Shown here one piece after another: positions 7,903-19,920 of a stretch of DNA of 53,353 nucleotides (position 1 is the first letter of the stretch; each line of letters starts with the position of its first letter). The position numbers and the translations under genes are program-made. The notes below the pieces were generated by a model. That model saw nothing but the letters and a program-made list of their open reading frames with translations, did not search any database and was not told where the DNA came from. The stretch spans positions 1 through 53,353 of IMG/VR virus record IMGVR_UViG_3300025425_000027; one strand, 5' to 3'. This DNA comes from a virus.

Positions 7903-8340
7903 TTAAGCCTCCATGTAAAGCGATCCAACCTTGGCCATGCCAAGTCGCTCATAAAAATTGTCTTTTCGGTCAATATCTCCAGAATAGACATGACCAAGTT
8001 TGACCTTGATGTTGGCGTCTCGACCTATTTCTAGGAAACTTTTCACCAGCGTTAGGGCCGCTCTTGATTTTCTATGCTCTTTATACACAAAAAACCACAG
8101 GTCAGCCAAGTATAATTTGTCGGACCACCAGTCGGACGTTTCCATCCCGCCAATAGATCCGATAATTTTGCCGTTAACTTCCGCCACAATGACAACGCCC
8201 CTGTGCAGGGCATTGTTAATTGCAGTGGTCAGCTTTTCGGAATTGACTGGCGATGTGCCGTCAACTGTCCCTGAGTGCATGACCATAAGCATCATGTACA
8301 ACTCAGATAAGTCTTCGACTGTCGCCAATCTTAATATCAA
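7903..8340 (-). CDS. GNAT-family N-acetyltransferase
   Basis: A 145-residue single-domain protein with the GNAT order of elements. The N-terminal ILRLATVEDLSEL matches strand beta1 and helix alpha1. GVVIVAEVNGKIIGSIGGM forms the central hairpin. LADLWFFVYKEHRKSRAALT contains the acetyl-CoA loop in a variant form (usual R/Q-x-x-G-x-G/A). The C-terminal FYERLGMAKVGSLY is the typical GNAT ending. Such enzymes are frequent inside phage structural modules; the acceptor is unknown. It overlaps the preceding small gene by four bases and ends next to the MGGFC virion protein. Confidence 0.8.
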   Translation of the reverse strand: MILRLATVEDLSELYMMLMVMHSGTVDGTSPVNSEKLTTAINNALHRGVVIVAEVNGKIIGSIGGMETSDWWSDKLYLADLWFFVYKEHRKSRAALTLVKSFLEIGRDANIKVKLGHVYSGDIDRKDNFYERLGMAKVGSLYMEA

Positions 8341-12463: not shown

Positions 12464-13285
12464 TTAGGACAGCATTGCGTTATAAGTCTTCGGGCCTACG
12501 ATCCCATCAGCAACAAGATCTTTACTTTCCTGCCACGCCTGAACCGCCTTTTGCGTCATTATACCAAAAACTCCATCCGTTTCCAGTCCTAATGCGGACT
12601 GCACCTTTTCAACTTCTTTGCCAGTTGATCCAACCTTTAATAGGATAGGCGCACGGACAACAACGTAGCTGCCACCTAAGATGTCCAGAGAGCGTTTGTA
12701 GTGGTGCTTTCGATCAGCAAGGCCAATCGTTCCGCCATTAATTTTTTTGGTCGCCTTAACAACATCCTGAGCGTCTGCGTGGCGGTTTAAGTTGTTTTCA
12801 TCCCAAAACCAGCAAGCACTTTCCAACGCGCCGCGCTTGGTTCCAAGGTATTCGATTGTGTCATCTAGATCCATGCCAACGCTCTTCGCAAAGGCAGATA
12901 CGTTGTCGAAGCCCGTCAATTGGATGACGCCTTTTCCCGAAAATTTCCAGCCATCCCCGCTCGACGGCGGTCCATTACCCATGCGGCTCGCATATACGAT
13001 ATTAGCAATCTTTTCGGGCTGACGATGGTATTCTTGAGCATCGCGCCCAGCACGTTCAAAATATTTAGGGAAGATAGCGTTAAGGCCCTTGGCAGAATAA
13101 TTAAGGTTTTCTTTTAGAACTTTGAAGTTCAGGCTTTCATGGCCACACTGAGCAACGAACATTGCAATTCTATCTTCGGTGTTCACACCATATTTTGGCA
13201 AAAGTTCTTGCATGGGTTCGACCCAGCTTTCCCAATCATCGTTGCCATGAAGCAAGTGCTTTACCTGTGAAGAAGTTAAGATCAT
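12464..13285 (-). CDS. Endolysin: GH19 chitinase-like domain plus peptidoglycan-binding domain
   Basis: A 273-residue endolysin. Residues 1-200 match the glycoside hydrolase 19 lysozyme/chitinase type: FVAQCGHESLNFKVLKENLN contains candidate catalytic Glu50 and Glu59, and FSGKGVIQLTGFDNVSAFAK is the usual downstream motif. Residues 214-272 form a C-terminal PG_binding_1 domain (VGSTGKEVEKVQSALGLETD and DGIVGPKTYNAML). No signal peptide is visible, so release to the periplasm needs the holin, whose gene overlaps the 5' end by four bases. GGGAGC is the RBS. Confidence 0.9.
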   Translation of the reverse strand: MILTSSQVKHLLHGNDDWESWVEPMQELLPKYGVNTEDRIAMFVAQCGHESLNFKVLKENLNYSAKGLNAIFPKYFERAGRDAQEYHRQPEKIANIVYASRMGNGPPSSGDGWKFSGKGVIQLTGFDNVSAFAKSVGMDLDDTIEYLGTKRGALESACWFWDENNLNRHADAQDVVKATKKINGGTIGLADRKHHYKRSLDILGGSYVVVRAPILLKVGSTGKEVEKVQSALGLETDGVFGIMTQKAVQAWQESKDLVADGIVGPKTYNAMLS

Positions 13286-13737
13286 TTGTTTGCTCCCATA
13301 AATTTACTTACACTTCTCTGCCCGAACCAAAACGCTATGATTGCGCTGAACAAAGCCTGTGTTTCATCATCAAACATCAGCGGAACTGCGTCTTGCCAAT
13401 CGTTGCCAGCTTCCATTGCCTTTAATAGTATGACCGCTTTGACGGATAGGAATAAAGCAAAAAAAGCATAAGTAATAACAGGCCGTACAGATGCGGATAA
13501 TCCTGCGGCAAAGCCGCTACGAGGGTTAGCAAATTCATATAAAGCCTTCGTTTCTGCAATCTCAGCTTGCTTATCTAGTTTCTGGATGTCGTGCGTAACG
13601 CCAAGGGCCGCGAGTTCGCCCTGTAGTTTAAGTTCTTCAATTCGGTTTTTGTGATCCTGTTTCTTTTGAAAGAACCCCAGCACTTGGGGAAGGAACGATG
13701 TCCCAAAGCCCAACGCGCTACCTAATAAAGCTATCAT
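13282..13737 (-). CDS. Holin, 3-TM type (GTA holin-like)
   Basis: A 151-residue protein with a hydrophobic N-terminal segment (ALLGSALGFGTSFLPQVLGFF), a charged coiled-coil-like stretch, and a second hydrophobic region after the RP motif: SVRPVITYAFFALFLSVKAV and ALFSAIIAFWFGQRSVSKFM. This order matches the three-transmembrane holin family known from the Roseobacter gene transfer agent. Overlap with the endolysin start (ATGA) supports a lysis function. The RBS is GGGAGGTAAG. It would open the inner membrane to let the endolysin through. Confidence 0.8.
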   Translation of the reverse strand: MIALLGSALGFGTSFLPQVLGFFQKKQDHKNRIEELKLQGELAALGVTHDIQKLDKQAEIAETKALYEFANPRSGFAAGLSASVRPVITYAFFALFLSVKAVILLKAMEAGNDWQDAVPLMFDDETQALFSAIIAFWFGQRSVSKFMGANK

Positions 13738-14048
13738 TCTTTCTTACCTCCCAGCTTAGAAAATCCAAAGAATGCCCCAACCAGCGCAGATACGGATACA
13801 AAATAAACCCCAGCGATACTAGCAAGAGAGTTCATCGCTTGATCCAGCCCCATAATAGCGCACAGGACTATAGCGAAGGGATAAAGCAGCATTCCAGACA
13901 GAGCAAACCAAGTCATCTTACGCTGGGCATCTCGCTGGGCATCTTCGTCATCAAGCACACGCTTCCGGTTTTCTAGGGCCAGAGCGTCCCACTCAGACTT
14001 ATCTATGTTGCCAGATCCGTCACTGTCGGCCTTTTCAAACTCAGTCAT
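13734..14048 (-). CDS. Membrane protein with N-terminal EF-hand
   Basis: A 104-residue protein that begins with a canonical EF-hand loop, DSDGSGNIDKSE (residues 8-19: D8, D10, S12, N14, D16, E19), followed by a basic helix. Two transmembrane segments follow (about 49-67, ALSGMLLYPFAIVLCAIMG, and 75-97). It overlaps the holin start by four bases, so it belongs to the lysis cassette and may be an accessory or regulatory holin. Calcium binding is inferred from the loop only. The RBS is GGAGATTGAT. Confidence 0.75.
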   Translation of the reverse strand: MTEFEKADSDGSGNIDKSEWDALALENRKRVLDDEDAQRDAQRKMTWFALSGMLLYPFAIVLCAIMGLDQAMNSLASIAGVYFVSVSALVGAFFGFSKLGGKKE

Positions 14049-14057
14049 ATCAATCTC

Positions 14058-14570
14058 CTAATCAGCCAAAGGATTGTCTAATGCACGTTGCAATTTACCC
14101 ATAAGCCTGTCCTCAAGTTCCTTCATATCCGCGTCTTGACTGCTTCTAACACGTTCTCTCTGATTTTCAAAACGAACTTCAGCAGCGTCAATCATAGCGC
14201 GGACCTTGTCTTCCATCTCCCGAACCATGTCTTCTATACGGTCAGTCTGCTGTTCGATCCGCAAAATGTCATCCGTCAGGCCATTCTTGATGGCACGGGA
14301 ATACTCGACGCCCTCCTCAACCTTCTCAGCAATGCCAAGCATTCGAGCGTCCATAACTTCCATTTGCTGTTGATACTCCCCAATATCAAGCCCTGCTACC
14401 TCTTCAATCTTTTGATACAGTACAAAGCCACCGTACAAACCACCAACTACCGTAGATATGAAAGCAAAGATTGCAAAGATAGATGCGAAGGTAAACTTAA
14501 AACCACCTGCCTTGATCTCGCGGTCTGCGAGGCCATCAATGTTATCTGCAACTTTAGTCAGATCAGTCAT
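14058..14570 (-). CDS. Inner-membrane coiled-coil protein, possible i-spanin-like
   Basis: A 170-residue protein with a short basic N-terminus, one transmembrane segment (about 27-52, FTFASIFAIFAFISTVVGGL) and then more than 100 residues of charged heptad-like coiled coil rich in Glu and Arg. The topology, N-in with a long periplasmic coiled coil, resembles an inner-membrane spanin. The next upstream gene codes for a secreted protein with its own C-terminal coiled coil, which could be the partner. The family is known to me from marine phages only as hypothetical, so the spanin assignment is an inference from topology and neighbours. Confidence 0.55.
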   Translation of the reverse strand: MTDLTKVADNIDGLADREIKAGGFKFTFASIFAIFAFISTVVGGLYGGFVLYQKIEEVAGLDIGEYQQQMEVMDARMLGIAEKVEEGVEYSRAIKNGLTDDILRIEQQTDRIEDMVREMEDKVRAMIDAAEVRFENQRERVRSSQDADMKELEDRLMGKLQRALDNPLAD

Positions 14571-15004
14571 CAGTTTTCAAACTCCATTTCGCCTTCATCG
14601 TTTTCACCTGATTCCTGCAACTTTTTAAGCTGTTGCAGTTCAGCGCGAAGCATTTGAATTTCAAGGCGTCTGTGGGTTAGCTCCATTTGAAACAAGTCAT
14701 CACAATTCACACGGCTTTTAGGCTTATCTAAAGGAATAACGACACGCGCATAAAGGCCAATGTCCTTACCCTGCCCAACGCCGTTTCCAATGTCGGTTAT
14801 AACACCCGTAACACCCCACTCAAGTGTCGTGCCGCCGCCGACAGCATTGCTACAATCCAGATTACCAGCGCGAAAACGATCAGATTGATAGTTCATCGGT
14901 GCGCTTGGGAGTTGGAGCGCAAGCGAACTGCTTTCCGATCTCGCCTCAAGAACGCTAATGAAAATTATAAACGATACCATCCAGAAAACTACATACCATT
15001 TCAT
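14570..15004 (-). CDS. Exported protein with C-terminal coiled coil
   Basis: A 144-residue protein with an N-terminal signal peptide or anchor (MKWYVVFWMVSFIIFISVLE), then a beta-rich Gly-containing part (GNLDCSNAVGGGTTLEWGV, GLYARVVIPLD) and a C-terminal helix (HRRLEIQMLRAELQQLKKLQ). Two cysteines (about 51 and 101) could form a disulphide after export. The beta part ending in IGLYARVVIPLD has the look of an outer-membrane or surface-barrel strand pair. It overlaps its neighbours by one to four bases. It belongs to the exported cassette and may contact the coiled-coil membrane protein encoded next. Function unknown. Confidence 0.65.
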   Translation of the reverse strand: MKWYVVFWMVSFIIFISVLEARSESSSLALQLPSAPMNYQSDRFRAGNLDCSNAVGGGTTLEWGVTGVITDIGNGVGQGKDIGLYARVVIPLDKPKSRVNCDDLFQMELTHRRLEIQMLRAELQQLKKLQESGENDEGEMEFEN

Positions 15005-15387
15005 GGCCTAGCCCCATCAACTCGCGAACATATCCTAGAGGAGATTACCGTCTTGACGCCAGCCTTCTTTAGCATCTTGGATGTTGTGCATAGATACACC
15101 GCCCGAACTAAATCAGCTTTTCTTATGTAGACTGAAAAGTCTTGCCGCTCCTCATGTTTTACCTTTAAAACTCTGTACTTTGTGGCAAAGGGTACGTTGA
15201 TCCAGTCAGCATCGAAGAGGGCGATCTTATAATACTTAACGTCAGATCGGTAATTAAACAAAGACATCTCTGCCTTCATTACCCCCTCAACGTAGGAAGG
15301 TTTTAGAGTTGGATAGGCAGGCGTCATTTCATGTGCCGCCAAAGCAGAAGACCAGACAAGAAACAACAGTGATGCTTTAGTTAGCAA
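15001..15387 (-). CDS. Exported chaperone-like protein (PapD-like, tentative)
   Basis: A 128-residue protein with a clear signal peptide (MLTKASLLFLVWSSALAA, cleavage near residue 18). The mature part is a single beta-rich domain: MTPAYPTLKPSYVEGVMKAE, then SLFNYRSDVKYYKIALFDAD and VKHEERQDFSVYIR. The order, with a strand that reports on a neighbouring protein's conduct and a DFSVYIR strand, recalls the N-terminal Ig-like domain of fimbrial chaperones. Two late Cys (about 99 and 119) could form a disulphide. It is encoded right after the pilin-like protein and overlaps it by 11 bases. Only one Ig-like domain is present, so a full PapD chaperone is excluded. Confidence 0.55.
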   Translation of the reverse strand: MLTKASLLFLVWSSALAAHEMTPAYPTLKPSYVEGVMKAEMSLFNYRSDVKYYKIALFDADWINVPFATKYRVLKVKHEERQDFSVYIRKADLVRAVYLCTTSKMLKKAGVKTVISSRICSRVDGARP

Positions 15388-15865
15388 TGCACTCTGCCTG
15401 TACGATGGCGGTATAACTTCCGCCGGGGAACGCTTTATCTACACCATAAATAGCAGTTGAGCTTGTATCGAACCAAGTGCTGCCAGCTACAGTTAAACTG
15501 AAATCAGTAGTAGCACCGTAAACAACTTTGTTGGTGTCATATGCTGACATGGTGGCATCTGTAGTTTGTCCTACAGCAGTAGAGCCAGTCCAATTAACAG
15601 TGTCCGTGAGCGTTGGCGAAGATGAAAAAGCTGTAGGCGATGTAATCCGCGCAGTATAGTAATTTGCAACGGCTACATCATACCTAACTATAGGGACAAC
15701 TCCACCATCAGCCGGAAGCGTAGACAGCTTTGTAGCCGTAGGGTTGCCATAAACACCCGGCGTGTCCGTTTGGATGATGCACTTTGCCTCAATGTTGCCA
15801 ACAATTTCTACTTCGGCAAGCGCAGGGAAAGCGCACATTGAAAGAATTAAAACAGGATACTTCAT
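15377..15865 (-). CDS. Exported pilin-like (spore-coat-U/fimbrial type) protein
   Basis: A 162-residue protein with a signal peptide MKYPVLILSMCAFPALA and a mature part starting EVEIVGNIEAKCIIQT. A Cys near the mature N-terminus and one four residues from the end (AECIAN) would bracket the domain with a disulphide. The body is Thr/Ser-rich beta structure (FSSSPTLTDTVNWTGSTA; TDFSLTVAGSTWFD) ending in GGSYTAIVQAECIAN, like fimbrial or spore-coat-U subunits. I chose the ATG at 15865 because GAGG lies seven bases upstream; another ATG at 15877 overlaps the preceding stop. The neighbouring chaperone-like gene supports the reading. Confidence 0.6.
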   Translation of the reverse strand: MKYPVLILSMCAFPALAEVEIVGNIEAKCIIQTDTPGVYGNPTATKLSTLPADGGVVPIVRYDVAVANYYTARITSPTAFSSSPTLTDTVNWTGSTAVGQTTDATMSAYDTNKVVYGATTDFSLTVAGSTWFDTSSTAIYGVDKAFPGGSYTAIVQAECIAN

Positions 15866-15873
15866 ATTGGACC

Positions 15874-16746
15874 TCATTCATCATATTGCATCTGCACCAT
15901 TTGTTCATGCAGCAATTGTTGCGCTAAATTATTTCTCAGTGCCTTACTATTATCGGGTAAATTAGCATCCGTCAAAGTTTTGACATCTCCGTATCTTCCA
16001 CCGTTTATCGTTGAATTATAGTACATAGCCAAATCAGTTTGGAGATTAATTGCGTTTATTATCTCAGCTTGGCCCTGCACCCGCAGCATTGTTAGCGCAT
16101 TATTGGACGCAGTAAGTCCCATTTCCAGCCTTGTCTCTTTTTCTTCATCGTCATCGTCAACGATACGGTTTCCATCCTGATCATATTTAAAGTTAGTGTC
16201 GCTGTCTAAAGCTGCAAGGATAAGTTCGTCCTCAAGAGTGTTATAAACCTCAACATCAACTACGGGAGGCGCAGGCTTAACGTAACCTACACAGCCGGAG
16301 TTTAATTGCGGATCGTAACACGCATCAATCCGGTAGCTGTAAACCACAACCGCATCCTGAACGCTTCCCGTACCGTCAACAGATATAGAACCGTTACCCC
16401 AATTCACACCGGGGGTATTGCCTAACGCAAATGATTTGGTGATCCGGTTGCCGGGAACGCCGCTCCAATCGTCAGTTTCTCTAAAAATATACCCACTGCC
16501 CAGAGCATTTAGATTGCTTACATGGACCTTCATGGCGTCTTCGGTATTCTTGACTGTTGTGTAGCGATATATAAGGCCATTTATGTCTAAGCCCGTCACA
16601 GAGGGCAGTACAGACCCCATTGACCAGTTTAGGCCACTGTATGCAGCGTTGCCCGTTGCACCGTATGTAAACGGCTCAGAGTAAGAGGAGGAGGCCAAGA
16701 GCGCCAAGTACAGCGCCAACACCAACCTTGGTGTCCTTATCAACAT
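15874..16746 (-). CDS. Exported surface/adhesin-like protein
   Basis: A 290-residue protein with a signal peptide (RLVLALYLALLASSSYS, cleavage near residue 23). The mature part has a beta-rich domain to about residue 160 (GLDINGLIYRYTTVKNTEDA; DDWSGVPGNRITKSFALG) with two cysteines in ACYDPQLNSGCVGY. It ends with a helical acidic part containing DSDTNFKYDQDGNRIVDDDD. I recall this domain from marine myoviruses and podoviruses as a conserved hypothetical. The signal peptide is encoded in the 71 bases that also encode the C-terminal hydrophobic tail of the preceding gene, in another frame. Role on virion or cell surface unknown. Confidence 0.65.
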   Translation of the reverse strand: MLIRTPRLVLALYLALLASSSYSEPFTYGATGNAAYSGLNWSMGSVLPSVTGLDINGLIYRYTTVKNTEDAMKVHVSNLNALGSGYIFRETDDWSGVPGNRITKSFALGNTPGVNWGNGSISVDGTGSVQDAVVVYSYRIDACYDPQLNSGCVGYVKPAPPVVDVEVYNTLEDELILAALDSDTNFKYDQDGNRIVDDDDEEKETRLEMGLTASNNALTMLRVQGQAEIINAINLQTDLAMYYNSTINGGRYGDVKTLTDANLPDNSKALRNNLAQQLLHEQMVQMQYDE

Positions 16747-17233
16747 TATTAAACATACCTTTTATAGCACCCTTGTCCATCTTCTGAGCGGGTTCGATAC
16801 TGTCCTCCGCCTCCCATGCCATCGTAGCAGCATCGCCTATTAGACCTCTAATTGGGCAGGGCGTCCCGGCATTCTTCATGGCAAGTTTTACGTTTGCATC
16901 TTGGCACATTACCGATACAGCCGCCACTTTCATGCCCATATCATACATAGTCTTAGCGTTCTTTAAGCGTAAGCAGTTCTCTTCGGTGTAAACCTTGCCC
17001 ACTGATATGCCAAGAATTTGGGTTTGTACTGCACCAGATACGCCAATCGTGCAAAGATCGCCCGTCCCAGTGCTGATTTGTGGGGATATTGCAGAGGGTG
17101 GAGGGCTGCGAACCGTGGTGTCCATTGTCCCAGACGAAGTTACATTACTGTCGCTATATACCGTGTCCGAAACTTGGGCATTGGCTAGGCCACCCGTCAA
17201 GATAAAAACCAATATGGCGATTAGGCGAGCCAT
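16676..17233 (-). CDS. Exported protein with C-terminal hydrophobic tail
   Basis: A 185-residue protein with signal peptide MARLIAILVFILTGGLANA, a Ser/Thr/Pro-rich linker (TTVRSPPPSAISPQISTGTG) and a helical core with cysteines in GDLCTIGVSGAVQTQILGIS, MCQDANVK and GTPCPIRG. It ends in the hydrophobic tail VGVGAVLGALGLLLLL. The segments around GVSGAVQ and VAAVSVMCQ, and the GTPCP motif, are familiar from many marine phage genomes, always unassigned. The hydrophobic C-terminus could anchor it in a membrane after export. It heads the exported cassette, which runs on through 14570 with overlapping genes. Confidence 0.7.
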   Translation of the reverse strand: MARLIAILVFILTGGLANAQVSDTVYSDSNVTSSGTMDTTVRSPPPSAISPQISTGTGDLCTIGVSGAVQTQILGISVGKVYTEENCLRLKNAKTMYDMGMKVAAVSVMCQDANVKLAMKNAGTPCPIRGLIGDAATMAWEAEDSIEPAQKMDKGAIKGMFNNVDKDTKVGVGAVLGALGLLLLL

Positions 17234-17424
17234 TACATCCTCATTAGGACCGTGACTAAAAGACCAATAATGGACGCAGCCGCAGCAATCATAATGGATT
17301 CCAACCTCTTGATTCTAATGTACAAATCTTTGAATTGAATTTTAACCTCAGTTTTAATTGCGATGACTTCCTTTTCCAATCCATCAATCCGTGCATGAGC
17401 TGAGCTTACTGTTCTTTTGTCCAT
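17233..17424 (-). CDS. Small TM/coiled-coil protein (XhlA-like, possible second lysis component)
   Basis: A 63-residue protein with a charged coiled-coil N-terminal part (ARIDGLEKEVIAIKTEVKIQ) and a C-terminal transmembrane segment (IMIAAAASIIGLLVTVLMRM). The order and size match phage haemolysin XhlA-type proteins that accompany holins. Start and stop overlap neighbours by one base (TAATG). It may be an accessory lysis protein or an anchor for the exported cassette that follows. Confidence 0.6.
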   Translation of the reverse strand: MDKRTVSSAHARIDGLEKEVIAIKTEVKIQFKDLYIRIKRLESIMIAAAASIIGLLVTVLMRM

Positions 17425-17762
17425 TAAACTTCAACCTTATCCCAGCTTGTTGTGTCTTCGTTCCACTCATAAGAATAACCATCGTCAGGGTAATCTACTG
17501 GGGCCACCCACAAAAAAGTATTATTATCCAGCGTCCAGCTTGGATACACTTGAGGTTCATAAAAAACATCTAAAGTTGAATCGTAAATAAACCCAATCCC
17601 AGCGTAGTTTTTACGCAAAGGAGTGCCGCCCAAAACGTGGACGCCGCCTTTTGTATTGTACGATGTTTGAACCCAAGTTACTTCTTGAGTGTCGATAAAG
17701 TCTTGCTCTGCAACGATTACGTTGGTCACAATCCCATCTTCTATTTTTGCATAATGTGACAT
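17424..17762 (-). CDS. Fibre-associated protein, marine-phage type
   Basis: A 112-residue protein beginning MSHYAKIEDGIVTNVIVAEQ, with the blocks WVQTSYNTKGGVHVLGG, PLRKNYAGIGFIYD and W-P-DYPDDGYSYEWNEDT. I recall this pattern from T4-like cyanophages and pelagiphages, where it occurs as a separate gene or as a domain near tail fibres. It is aromatic- and beta-rich, with no signal peptide. The location between the glycine-rich fibre gene and the exported cassette suggests a receptor-binding or fibre-tip role. Confidence 0.65.
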   Translation of the reverse strand: MSHYAKIEDGIVTNVIVAEQDFIDTQEVTWVQTSYNTKGGVHVLGGTPLRKNYAGIGFIYDSTLDVFYEPQVYPSWTLDNNTFLWVAPVDYPDDGYSYEWNEDTTSWDKVEV

Positions 17763-17772
17763 GATTAGTTTC

Positions 17773-18600
17773 CTATACTGGCGTCAAATATCGAATTATA
17801 ACAATACCAGAACCACCAGTTTGGACGTTACCGGGGGCATTAAATGCCCCGCCTCCGCCGCCGCCAGTATTGGCTTGTCCGCCAGTTGATGCGACATTGT
17901 CCCCGTTATAAACAGCTCCTGCGCCACCGCCGCCACGGCCACCGCCGCCGGGTGTGGCTGGCTGGCTTAAATGCTGCCCACCCCCAGAACCTCCAGAAGC
18001 TCGCGTTGTGCCTGTAAATCCTTCGCTTGATCCAGCGCCGCCCGGTCCACCTTTCCAAGTGTAGTTTGATGGCGTTCGCCCACCATTTCCACCGACTCCA
18101 CCTTTGCCGCCGCCGCCGCCGCCGCCAGAGCCATACGCATCACTGGCTCGATTCCCGCCATTGTTGCCTTGCCCAGCCGTTCCAGACCCTCCCGGTCCAC
18201 CGCCAGATCCACCATCGCCGGAATTCCCTGACGTAGTCCCCCCGCCGCCGCCGCCAATAGCCGTTAACTCACCAAAAACAGAATCAGCTCCGTTATTTAT
18301 AGCGCCAGAAGCAGCGCCAGCCCCAACAGTAACGGTGTACGGCCCCTTTTGTATTACAACGTCTGTACTGTACAGGTAACCGCCAGCGCCCCCACCGCCT
18401 TTGTCATATCCTGTCCCACCGCCAGCAATTGTTATGACATCAGCAAGACCTTGTCCTCCAGTTACAGTAAATGTACCACTGCTAGTAAACGTGTGAATAG
18501 TATAAGAACCAGAGGTGCTTTCTGTTCCACCCGTAGCTCCTGTAAGAGCGCCAAGACCGCCGCCAGAACCAAAACCTAAGACTTGATATCCAAAACTCAT
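17773..18600 (-). CDS. Glycine-rich tail fibre/adhesin protein
   Basis: A 275-residue protein with over one third glycine. After SGSYTIHTFTSSGTFTVTGG come long Gly runs (GGGGGGGKGGVGGNGG) and it ends NVQTGGSGIVIIRYLTP, which is the signature of the phage glycine-rich domain related to receptor-binding adhesins with polyglycine helices. It is likely the tip or adhesin of the tail fibre. The codons produce strong GGC/GCC low-complexity DNA at 17850-18270. It lies directly next to the long fibre gene at 18610-19920. Confidence 0.75.
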   Translation of the reverse strand: MSFGYQVLGFGSGGGLGALTGATGGTESTSGSYTIHTFTSSGTFTVTGGQGLADVITIAGGGTGYDKGGGGAGGYLYSTDVVIQKGPYTVTVGAGAASGAINNGADSVFGELTAIGGGGGGTTSGNSGDGGSGGGPGGSGTAGQGNNGGNRASDAYGSGGGGGGGKGGVGGNGGRTPSNYTWKGGPGGAGSSEGFTGTTRASGGSGGGQHLSQPATPGGGGRGGGGAGAVYNGDNVASTGGQANTGGGGGGAFNAPGNVQTGGSGIVIIRYLTPV

Positions 18601-18609
18601 GTTACACTC

Positions 18610-19920
18610 CTACGCATCATTTGCCGCATCAGTGGTAAAGAACAGTTTAATGCCCAGCAAACGAGCTACTCCTGTTTGACCGCTGGCGCTTGCATCGTTG
18701 TTAATTTGGAAGAAGCATTGGTCATTATCCGCAGGGCTTCCAGCAATTGTAACTGCTCCACTCTCCGCAGACACCATGAGGTCATTAGATGTACCGCTAT
18801 GAGCCAGTGCAGTTGTTGCAACCAGTGTTCCAAATGCAGTGTTGATTGTATCGTCAGAGCTTACAGCAATTCCACCTAACTGCCATACGACTGTGCCTGT
18901 GTTAGTTCCAGTCACAGTCCAGAATGGCTGGTAAGTAATTGTACCAAGGTTCCAGCTCTTTGGAAATGAGACGGCAAACTGAGCAAAAACATCGCTGGCC
19001 GCTGCAAAATCCAACACCTTCAAGTCAGGGCGAAGTGCTGTGGTTTCTACTTGTTCAGGGCCAGCACATCCGTTTGTAGTAGATGGGTACATAGCAGACG
19101 CTGGAATCCAGATGGTTTCCTTACCTGCTATTTTTGCAACGACTCCGTCTAGCTGGTTTAAGTCAGCAGCCGAACTTGTCATTGCTGTTGCGCCTATTGT
19201 AATCTGGCCTTCTGGAACAATTAGCCCCCCCGCACCGCCAAGAATTAAATCATCTGCCGAAGCGTCCCAAAGCATATAAGCTGACGCAGTATCGCCAAAG
19301 AGCTTAACATCGTAGCCCGTGTCATCAACGCCAACAGATAGCGTAGCGTCAATCTGCACAGCGCCATCAATGTCCACAGCGTCTAGGTTTGCAGTGCCGT
19401 TAACATCGATACTGCCTTCAAGATCAATGTCACCGCCGACAATTAAATCATCCGTAACCGTCAGATCGTCATCAACCAACATATCCACAACATTCAGCGA
19501 AGCAAAGGCATCTACGAAGGCAGCGCCAGAGCCAGCCCCATCGCCATATACCGCTTTGGTTTGCCCTGCTGGGATTGTGATGTTAGCACCAGATCCCTGA
19601 GAGATGATAATGTTCTGAGATCCGCTAGTGGCGTTCTCAATAAACCACATTTTATTGACCGTGTTTGGGCCGATAGTGATCGTACACGCACTGTCTAGAG
19701 TACCTGTGTACTTCAGGAACATTGCCCTGCCGGGGTCAGAAGCGCCATCCGCGATTGTGGTTGTGTGCGTGTCGGCGTTGGTTGTTATGGCTTCTGTGCC
19801 AAAGCCAAACGCCTCACCGATCAATTCGAGGTTAGTATTCGTGACTGTTCCCCATGAGCCTGACTGATCGCCAGTTGCCATCTCATTTAGGCGAAGGTCA
19901 TTTACATAGGTAGAAGCCAT
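18610..19920 (-). CDS. Tail fibre protein
   Basis: A 436-residue, beta-rich protein. The N-terminus (MASTYVNDLRLNEMATGDQS, then GSWGTVTNTNLELIGEAFGF) matches the virion-attachment part of marine phage fibres. The centre has short repeated strands (VDDDLTVTDDLIVGGDIDLE; SIDVNGTANLDAVDIDGAVQ) typical of a trimeric fibre shaft. The C-terminal ~170 residues (from IWIPASAMYPSTTNG) form a distinct domain often seen in phage structural proteins. It should bind the host receptor or carry the glycine-rich adhesin. Confidence 0.75.
   Translation of the reverse strand: MASTYVNDLRLNEMATGDQSGSWGTVTNTNLELIGEAFGFGTEAITTNADTHTTTIADGASDPGRAMFLKYTGTLDSACTITIGPNTVNKMWFIENATSGSQNIIISQGSGANITIPAGQTKAVYGDGAGSGAAFVDAFASLNVVDMLVDDDLTVTDDLIVGGDIDLEGSIDVNGTANLDAVDIDGAVQIDATLSVGVDDTGYDVKLFGDTASAYMLWDASADDLILGGAGGLIVPEGQITIGATAMTSSAADLNQLDGVVAKIAGKETIWIPASAMYPSTTNGCAGPEQVETTALRPDLKVLDFAAASDVFAQFAVSFPKSWNLGTITYQPFWTVTGTNTGTVVWQLGGIAVSSDDTINTAFGTLVATTALAHSGTSNDLMVSAESGAVTIAGSPADNDQCFFQINNDASASGQTGVARLLGIKLFFTTDAANDA

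Follow-up and report, generated by a model that had tools for sequence, protein, structure and literature searches.

What would a phage do with a run of exported, fimbria-like proteins encoded between its lysis and fibre genes? The question was raised by a 53,353-nt stretch of virus DNA (the window), in which six overlapping minus-strand genes, named A to F in order of reading, occupy positions 14058-17233. The overall explanation that we consider best, and to which we give about an even chance, is a virus-specific export cassette making an envelope polymer that acts against competing phages.

Genes of the cassette and their setting

The original prediction described five overlapping minus-strand open reading frames of 185, 290, 162, 128 and 144 residues, and all of them were present. 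Gene A (16676-17233, 185 aa) carries a signal peptide, a Thr/Ser-rich stretch, a conserved four-Cys domain and a C-terminal hydrophobic helix, a possible membrane anchor, as judged from the reading frame, the alignment and PHROG 20531, to which it corresponds; homologues of A occur in pelagiphages. Gene B (15874-16746, 290 aa) was described from its reading frame and alignment and has a signal peptide, two conserved cysteines in the N-terminal region, an acidic/charged middle and a conserved C-terminus (RNNLAQQLLHEQMV..QY). It was unmatched in PDB, Pfam and cultured phages; pelagiphage B-like proteins gave a weak match only, and homology to them is not claimed. Gene C (15377-15877) encodes a pilin-like subunit of 166 aa, or of 162 aa if translation starts at an inner ATG at 15865, and gene D (15001-15387, 128 aa, TTG start) encodes a single Ig domain like domain 1 of PapD-type chaperones. 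Gene E (14570-15004, 144 aa) combines a signal peptide, beta-strands between two invariant cysteines and a C-terminal helix or coiled coil. The protein was modelled poorly as a monomer by AlphaFold2, so its role is a guess, and we regard it as a candidate outer-membrane or oligomeric component.

The N-terminal signal sequences attributed to A-E were borne out by a simple heuristic for an N-terminal hydrophobic core: among 57 candidate window genes eight had such a core, five of which were exactly A-E; for each of these genes, 83-98% of the distinct homologues had the core as well. As a unit, the five-gene run was real, but it had been drawn too small. Gene F (14058-14570, 170 aa) accompanied A-E in every complete locus, always as the last cassette gene, and was therefore counted as the sixth member. 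It has one N-terminal transmembrane (TM) segment, a long coiled coil and a C-terminal NPLAD, an i-spanin-like layout that makes its product a candidate inner-membrane protein facing the periplasm. Genes A-E were without any covering family in Pfam and NCBIfam, a sequence search of PDB gave no match for their families, and promoter and terminator scans of the DNA yielded signals at chance level only.

The setting between lysis and fibre genes was also confirmed, with all flanking genes on the minus strand. Downstream lie gene G (13734-14048), encoding an EF-hand and two-TM protein that adjoins the cassette often but not always, a holin-like protein (13282-13737; weak GTA_holin_3TM match, PHROG 6637) and an endolysin (12464-13285; GH19-like with PG_binding_1). 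Upstream, fibre-like genes encoding 112, 275 (Gly-rich) and 436 aa span 17424-19920. The cassette is presumably expressed along with these late fibre and lysis genes.

Folds of the C and D proteins

The 162-residue protein had been proposed to be pilin- or spore-coat-U-like. Structure prediction and fold search on C returned a pilin-like fold: folded alone by AlphaFold2 it reached a pLDDT of 89.9, and its best PDB matches in Foldseek were CfaB, the PapG pilin domain, FimG, FimF, Caf1 and CsuA/B, with a probability of 0.8-1.0. The Foldseek scores were modest (best E 2e-3, range to 7e-2; TM 0.42-0.49), and MSCRAMM and adaptin domains were also among the matches; in BFVD the best match was a 124-aa phage protein without a name. 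The likeness to chaperone-usher pilins thus stood at the level of fold, and not at that of the sequence families SCPU and Fimbrial. SCPU had no match in 48 C members, and the Pfam models SCPU, DUF4402, Fimbrial and PapD_N were unmatched even when C, D and their relatives were searched member by member.

The N-terminal extension of C alternates hydrophobic residues (V-x-I-x-G-x-V-x3-C), with Gly23 kept in 48/48 members, and the two cysteines, Cys29 and Cys159, lie at opposite chain ends. The pattern h-x-h-x-G-x-h-x(2-5)-C-x-h, which was chosen after looking at the sequences, occurred in 101/113 of the C proteins and in 13/18 of the pilins of K-12; it was rare among background ORFs (6/1365) and absent from the K-12 chaperones and other proteins tested (0/27). 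The C profile put pilins first in a panel of 45 K-12 proteins. With a mean identity of 66%, C is the most conserved member of the C-D-E core.

The D family was modelled by AlphaFold2 through a D-E read-through of the family member L132, a modelling device only with no real read-through claimed, and formed one Ig domain. The best 43 PDB matches in Foldseek were nearly all PapD-type chaperones, and the 36 below E 1e-3 were all PapD-type chaperones or their complexes (PapD/FimC/Caf1M). D ends where chaperone domain 1 ends, and the second chaperone domain is missing. The Lys112-type cleft position was basic in 5/5 Vibrio D proteins and in 16/27 cassette D proteins and is Asp in the D of the window; no clear equivalent of Arg8 was seen in the alignment. 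The D profile gave no significant match to K-12 chaperones, and a profile-profile comparison with chaperones was co-linear over 100 columns with a score equalled by 3/60 shuffles, which is not significant. The single chaperone-type Ig domain predicted for the 128-residue protein therefore held for the fold but found no PapD sequence match in Pfam or NCBIfam. Antibody light chains, returned from PDB for one Vibrio D searched as a single sequence, were rejected as relatives and taken as Ig-like noise, and a C-D fusion alignment was discarded because MAFFT placed D on C.

These results bear on whether C and D are generic exported Ig-like proteins whose likeness to pilin and chaperone reflects convergent beta-sandwiches in Foldseek. 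Such a reading would accommodate the missing sequence match to known families, the shuffles that reach the D score and the MSCRAMM and adaptin domains in the match list of C, but it has to account for two independent neighbouring proteins matching both partners of one system, for a D list made up almost purely of chaperones and for the pilin N-terminal motif of C; we consider it unlikely. The data suggest with good confidence that C and D are an exported pilin/chaperone-like pair, and the original view of folds and export was largely right.

Distribution of the cassette and its neighbours

Synteny was analysed in 188 loci from IMG/VR, each with C or E. All six genes were present in the same order in 151 of the 188, there were no order violations, and every missing cassette gene fell at a contig or locus end. 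Mantel r between cassette genes was 0.75-0.92, and dN/dS was well below 1 for all cassette genes compared, indicating purifying selection. The carriers have different backbones, T4-like phages among them (Gp23-type capsid in 4/20 records, window-type TerL in 4/20). Stretches of C numbered at least 297 in viruses versus 2 in 84,980 species genomes, and no relative of D was found in plasmids. The cassette is virus-specific and inherited as one unit across different phages, and the six-gene block is common to many marine phages, in which it adjoins fibre and lysis genes.

That cultured Vibrio phages also carry the core trio had not been part of the original prediction. The C-D-E core was found in about 180 of them, T5-like and others, with the Vibrio homologue of D corresponding to PHROG 25455; E corresponds to PHROG 37374. 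In the five Vibrio phage regions examined the trio had the same order, was annotated as hypothetical and followed directly after large fibre-like genes. In the T5-like phages Bennett, where the three genes are gp148-150, and pVp-1 it was followed in turn by a small lipoprotein, a holin and an M15 endolysin.

This last arrangement, together with the succession F, G, holin and endolysin in the window, would suit a lysis accessory, in which a spanin-like F lies at the inner membrane, E and the Vibrio lipoprotein lie at the outer one, and C and D build a scaffold in the periplasm whose effect is to bridge or weaken the envelope or to set the moment of lysis. F resembles spanins of the Rz/Rz1 type in its single N-terminal TM segment, in its coiled coil, predicted to lie in the periplasm, and in its place next to holin and endolysin genes; it differs in belonging to a six-gene exported set that is also found away from lysis genes, and no o-spanin was identified in the window. 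Many loci, T4-like ones included, have A-F without G, holin or endolysin nearby, and spanins function without a pilin/chaperone pair, which makes a lysis accessory rather improbable.

The fibre-like genes that precede the cassette in the window and the trio in all five Vibrio phages would fit a virion appendage, with C (together with B or E) as a fibre or decoration gained by progeny in the periplasm or on lysis and D as its chaperone. Virion proteins of tailed phages are assembled in the cytoplasm, and the cleavable-type signal sequences and conserved Cys pairs seen here are not typical of them; the cassette is moreover common to unrelated virion types. We hold this reading to be very doubtful.

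The outer membrane and the proposed role

The window had been described as lacking an usher or CsgG-like pore, and none was matched there or in the 20 records searched. Usher PF00577 was found in 0/20 records, with a positive control in E. coli, and CsgG PF03783 was over cut-off in 0/20 records, with positive controls matched. Because neither pore was present in the 20 records searched, crossing of the outer membrane is left without explanation.

Chaperone-usher pili (FimA/FimC/FimD, Caf1/Caf1M and the archaic CsuA/B-CsuC) share with the cassette an exported pilin-like subunit beside an Ig chaperone-like protein, as well as an Nte-type motif and a Cys near the mature N-terminus in C, and they supply the best fold matches of both proteins. 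The cassette differs in having no usher, a one-Ig-domain chaperone, a single subunit gene, C cysteines at the chain ends (29, 159) and the extra partners A, B, E and F, and in being phage-borne. Since an usher was absent from the 20 records and the two-domain chaperone is missing, identity with a chaperone-usher pilus was rejected. Curli were likewise rejected, with no CsgG match over cut-off in the 20 records and no Csg-like family matches. The curli/type VIII secretion modules of pelagiphages (CsgG, CsgF, CsgA/B, FecR) are similar as multigene envelope or fibre export modules in marine tailed phages, whereas their gene content and folds are different. Curli modules are encoded by marine phages and reported absent from hosts (PMC7029224, PMC9599517), a precedent which, with the pilin-like C and chaperone-like D, would fit a virus-made adhesive fibre that clumps cells or keeps siblings close to the site of the burst, a role already suggested for the curli of pelagiphages. 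Clumping was not seen with the curli-bearing phage Melnitz (PMC9004378), and the outer-membrane pore that such a fibre would use was not identified in the 20 records; an adhesive fibre therefore appears quite improbable.

We return to the envelope polymer, a product for which the case stands near even. A-E would be exported by Sec into the periplasm, where D, as an Ig half-chaperone, may cap or complete C through donor-strand complementation and C may polymerise via its alternating-hydrophobic N-terminal extension. E, with disulfide-closed beta hairpins and a coiled coil, might be what anchors the polymer to the outer membrane or lets it through; the inner-membrane side could be held by F and A, and B may be a secreted end piece or binder. 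Coating or plugging the envelope of the infected cell would keep rival phages, as well as the progeny of the carrier itself, from adsorbing or injecting, a purpose that would fit the cassette's place beside fibre genes. That receptor masking or a superinfection block is the main use is a tentative suggestion. Phage T5 offers a possible parallel in lytic conversion, in which Llp, a single lipoprotein, blocks FhuA. The resemblance would be that of a small exported phage envelope protein linked to receptor-binding genes, and a small lipoprotein also lies after C-D-E in Vibrio T5-like phages. A literature search found no proteomics, expression or phenotype data on the cassette.

Carrier phages are likely to reshape the envelope of their host, while killing it, in a manner that has not been described before. 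It is possible, although we lean against it, that the cassette is an usher-less phage fibre or secretion system, with pilin-like C and one-domain chaperone D, a small oligomeric outer-membrane E and inner-membrane A and F, which T4-like and other marine phages pass between them as a single unit (T5-like Vibrio phages likewise having the C-D-E core) and use to rebuild the host envelope late in infection. With some 180 cultured Vibrio phages carrying the core, among them T5-like ones that grow on laboratory hosts (V. harveyi BAA-1116 or V. campbellii BB120), the question is open to a direct test now. If the explanation is true, a common and so far unnamed marine-phage cassette provides both main folds of a pilus system minus its pore, and PHROGs 20531, 25455, 25895 and 37374, all of function unknown, would gain names. 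It would show viruses changing the surface of their hosts by a new route, and donor-strand chemistry would gain a minimal model.

A six-gene cassette beside fibre genes

An ORF check of the window, a 53,353-base IMG/VR virus record, confirmed the five overlapping minus-strand genes claimed in the original prediction: A (16676-17233, 185 aa), B (15874-16746, 290 aa), C (15377-15877, 166/162 aa), D (15001-15387, 128 aa) and E (14570-15004, 144 aa). The cassette has six genes, since F (14058-14570, minus strand), encoding one transmembrane (TM) segment followed by a coiled coil with an NPLAD end, belongs to it as the next member after E. Of 57 candidate window genes, only eight were given an N-terminal hydrophobic core by a simple signal-sequence heuristic. 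The consecutive genes A-E account for five of them, and the core was kept in 83-98% of the distinct homologues of each of these families, bearing out the predicted run of signal sequences. The proposed setting between lysis and fibre genes was also found: fibre-like and Gly-rich genes lie upstream of the cassette, and downstream are genes for a protein with an EF-hand and two TM segments, for a holin-like protein and for an endolysin. The EF-hand gene (13734-14048), located between the cassette and the holin gene and seen again in many related loci, has a small membrane protein as its product, in which one EF-hand-like motif (Pfam EF-hand_5, E 5e-5) is combined with two TM segments; a regulator of lysis that binds calcium would be unusual. 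A GNAT acetyltransferase gene (7903-8340) is surrounded by DNA-ejection protein genes, and the late genes of HTVC115P include one annotated as a toxin-activating lysine acyltransferase.

IMG/VR was scanned with C, D, E and their alignments. A relative of C was encoded in 297 IMG/VR stretches and a relative of E in at least 572. The computation established a strict cassette structure under selection. Among 188 loci carrying C or E, all six families were present in 151, the order A-B-C-D-E-F was broken in none, and each absent member fell past the contig or locus end. Because the loci were fetched with C, D or E only, selection of loci does not account for finding A, B and F in them. C, D and E occurred as one copy apiece in each locus; the six-gene distances correlated (r 0.75-0.92, 97 non-redundant loci), and wherever a pair had diverged measurably, dS exceeded dN by several-fold to about tenfold or more. 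A search for C through 84,980 species genomes of bacteria and archaea found it in only two short contigs, both from metagenome bins or assemblies.

Predicted folds of C and D

The model of C, built from 48 sequences, had a mean pLDDT of 89.9 (core 93-98). Its best PDB matches were mostly pilin subunits (CfaB, the PapG pilin domain, FimG, FimF, Caf1 and CsuA/B) at modest scores (E 2e-3 to 7e-2, probability 0.8-1.0, TM about 0.4-0.49), with MSCRAMM and adaptin beta-sandwiches likewise among the matches. From the predicted signal cleavage site to Cys29, C kept V-x-I-x-G-x-V, with Gly in 48/48. The pattern h-x-h-x-G-x-h-x(2-5)-C-x-h was present in 101/113 C proteins and 13/18 E. coli K-12 pilins (e.g., FimF ITIRGYVRDNGCSV and YcbV VNISGSFRRNTCVL), in 0/27 K-12 chaperones and other proteins, and in 6/1365 background ORFs; one of the five Vibrio phage counterparts (C'), that of 252E42.2, fitted it strictly. 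This pattern was chosen with both families in view and is therefore support, not proof. When a panel of 45 K-12 proteins was ranked by a C profile, pilins also came first (best E 0.0022). Of the original pilin/spore-coat-U reading of C, the modest fold matches favor a pilin-like protein, but no Pfam or NCBIfam family matched; nor did any such family cover A, B, D, E or the Vibrio core.

For modelling, D was joined to E in an artificial read-through taken from locus L132, the linker being a device; in this model D was confident (residues 20-104, pLDDT about 90-96) and the E part lacked confidence. All 36 PDB matches of D under 1e-3 were PapD-type chaperones or their complexes (including Caf1M, FimC, SafB, PapD and FaeE), and the shorter alignments, of about 115 columns, covered one chaperone domain. 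The matches suggest that D forms a single chaperone-type Ig domain, as had been proposed. In profile comparison with nine K-12 chaperones, D was co-linear over about 100 columns without reaching significance. The alignment stopped at the G1 strand of the chaperones (Vibrio ACAKVRLYWP versus AIISRIKLYYRP); the residue aligned with the chaperone cleft lysine was basic in 5/5 Vibrio and 16/27 cassette D proteins and Asp in the window D. Computation shows export signals, conserved Cys pairs and, in neighbouring genes, predicted folds of pilin-like (C) and chaperone-like (D) type.

Neither an usher nor CsgG was found in the 20 records searched, the positive controls being detected, in agreement with the original claim that no such pore is present. 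The cassette is not a chaperone-usher member, because an usher and a two-domain chaperone were tested for and both were missing; its working would at most correspond to the first half of that system. The pelagiphage curli module (PMC7029224, PMC9599517, PMC9004378) was rejected as its identity, no CsgG having been found in the 20 records.

The C-D-E core in Vibrio phages and movement between phages

The E protein of a T4-like relative matched 180 Vibrio phage records, the best ones aligning along 93% of its length. In the T5-like phage Bennett, a 156-aa exported protein (gp148, C') and a D-like protein (gp149, D') precede E' (gp150). Profile comparison matched C' to C (probability 93%, E 3e-7), D' to D (94.5%, E 8e-8) and E' to E (98%, E 3e-14). 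Bennett gp149 is longer than annotated: the annotated start drops the signal peptide, and the true ORF begins upstream (L193:5573). The trio was also present in pVp-1, 252E42.2, K379 and D81, immediately behind large fibre-like genes, and was followed in Bennett and pVp-1 by a small lipoprotein, holin and endolysin. The Vibrio link was independently confirmed, because window D and E matched the same PHROGs as the Vibrio proteins (25455, weakly, for D; 37374, clearly, for E). The lipoprotein-like gene after E' in loci L193, L203 and L205 (52-67 aa, PHROG 16916) could encode an o-spanin or a T5 Llp-like receptor blocker. In D81, a PagP-annotated gene (lipid A acylation, an envelope-modifying function; L206:9679-10116) lies a few kb from the trio.

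A and B are missing from the Vibrio phages. In pelagiphages A is present, and behind it come a B-like protein that is secreted and a small TM protein; D and E were not found in them by profile search, nor was C in the one search made with it among cultured phages. This distribution makes the six-gene cassette look like a union of two modules.

The cassette moves from phage to phage. A T4-type major capsid protein was present in 4/20 records and a TerL related to that of the window in 4/20, and the genes around the cassette were almost wholly different from one representative to another. Between loci L043 and L044, C, D and E were almost identical and A and B clearly diverged, suggesting exchange with a break between B and C, inside the cassette. 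In the L155 record, a TerL relative (G013:C1:47555-48950) was in pieces, with TGA and TAG codons in frame across about 1.4 kb; this may reflect sequencing errors, decay of the gene or recoding of stop codons.

Proposed mechanism and role

Strand donation by D would complete or hold C, and C would polymerise. E, which has two invariant Cys enclosing hairpins and also a coiled coil, may be the outer-membrane partner, F and A the inner-membrane partners, and B a secreted end piece. The cassette is located beside fibre genes, with lysis genes in addition in the window and in T5-like Vibrio phages. Judged by its late position, its targeting to the envelope and the fibre genes next to it, the most consistent purpose would be to mask or seal the infected cell so that no more phage adsorbs or injects, offered as a tentative guess. 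Support of lysis is a still more doubtful alternative, with a virion fibre or a cell-aggregating fibre as other rivals of low probability.

The original structural reading was judged good. The cassette is real, widespread and conserved, and is undescribed within the literature searched, outside which lie most subscription journals and preprints. Its function is testable in cultured Vibrio phages, which carry the C-D-E core.
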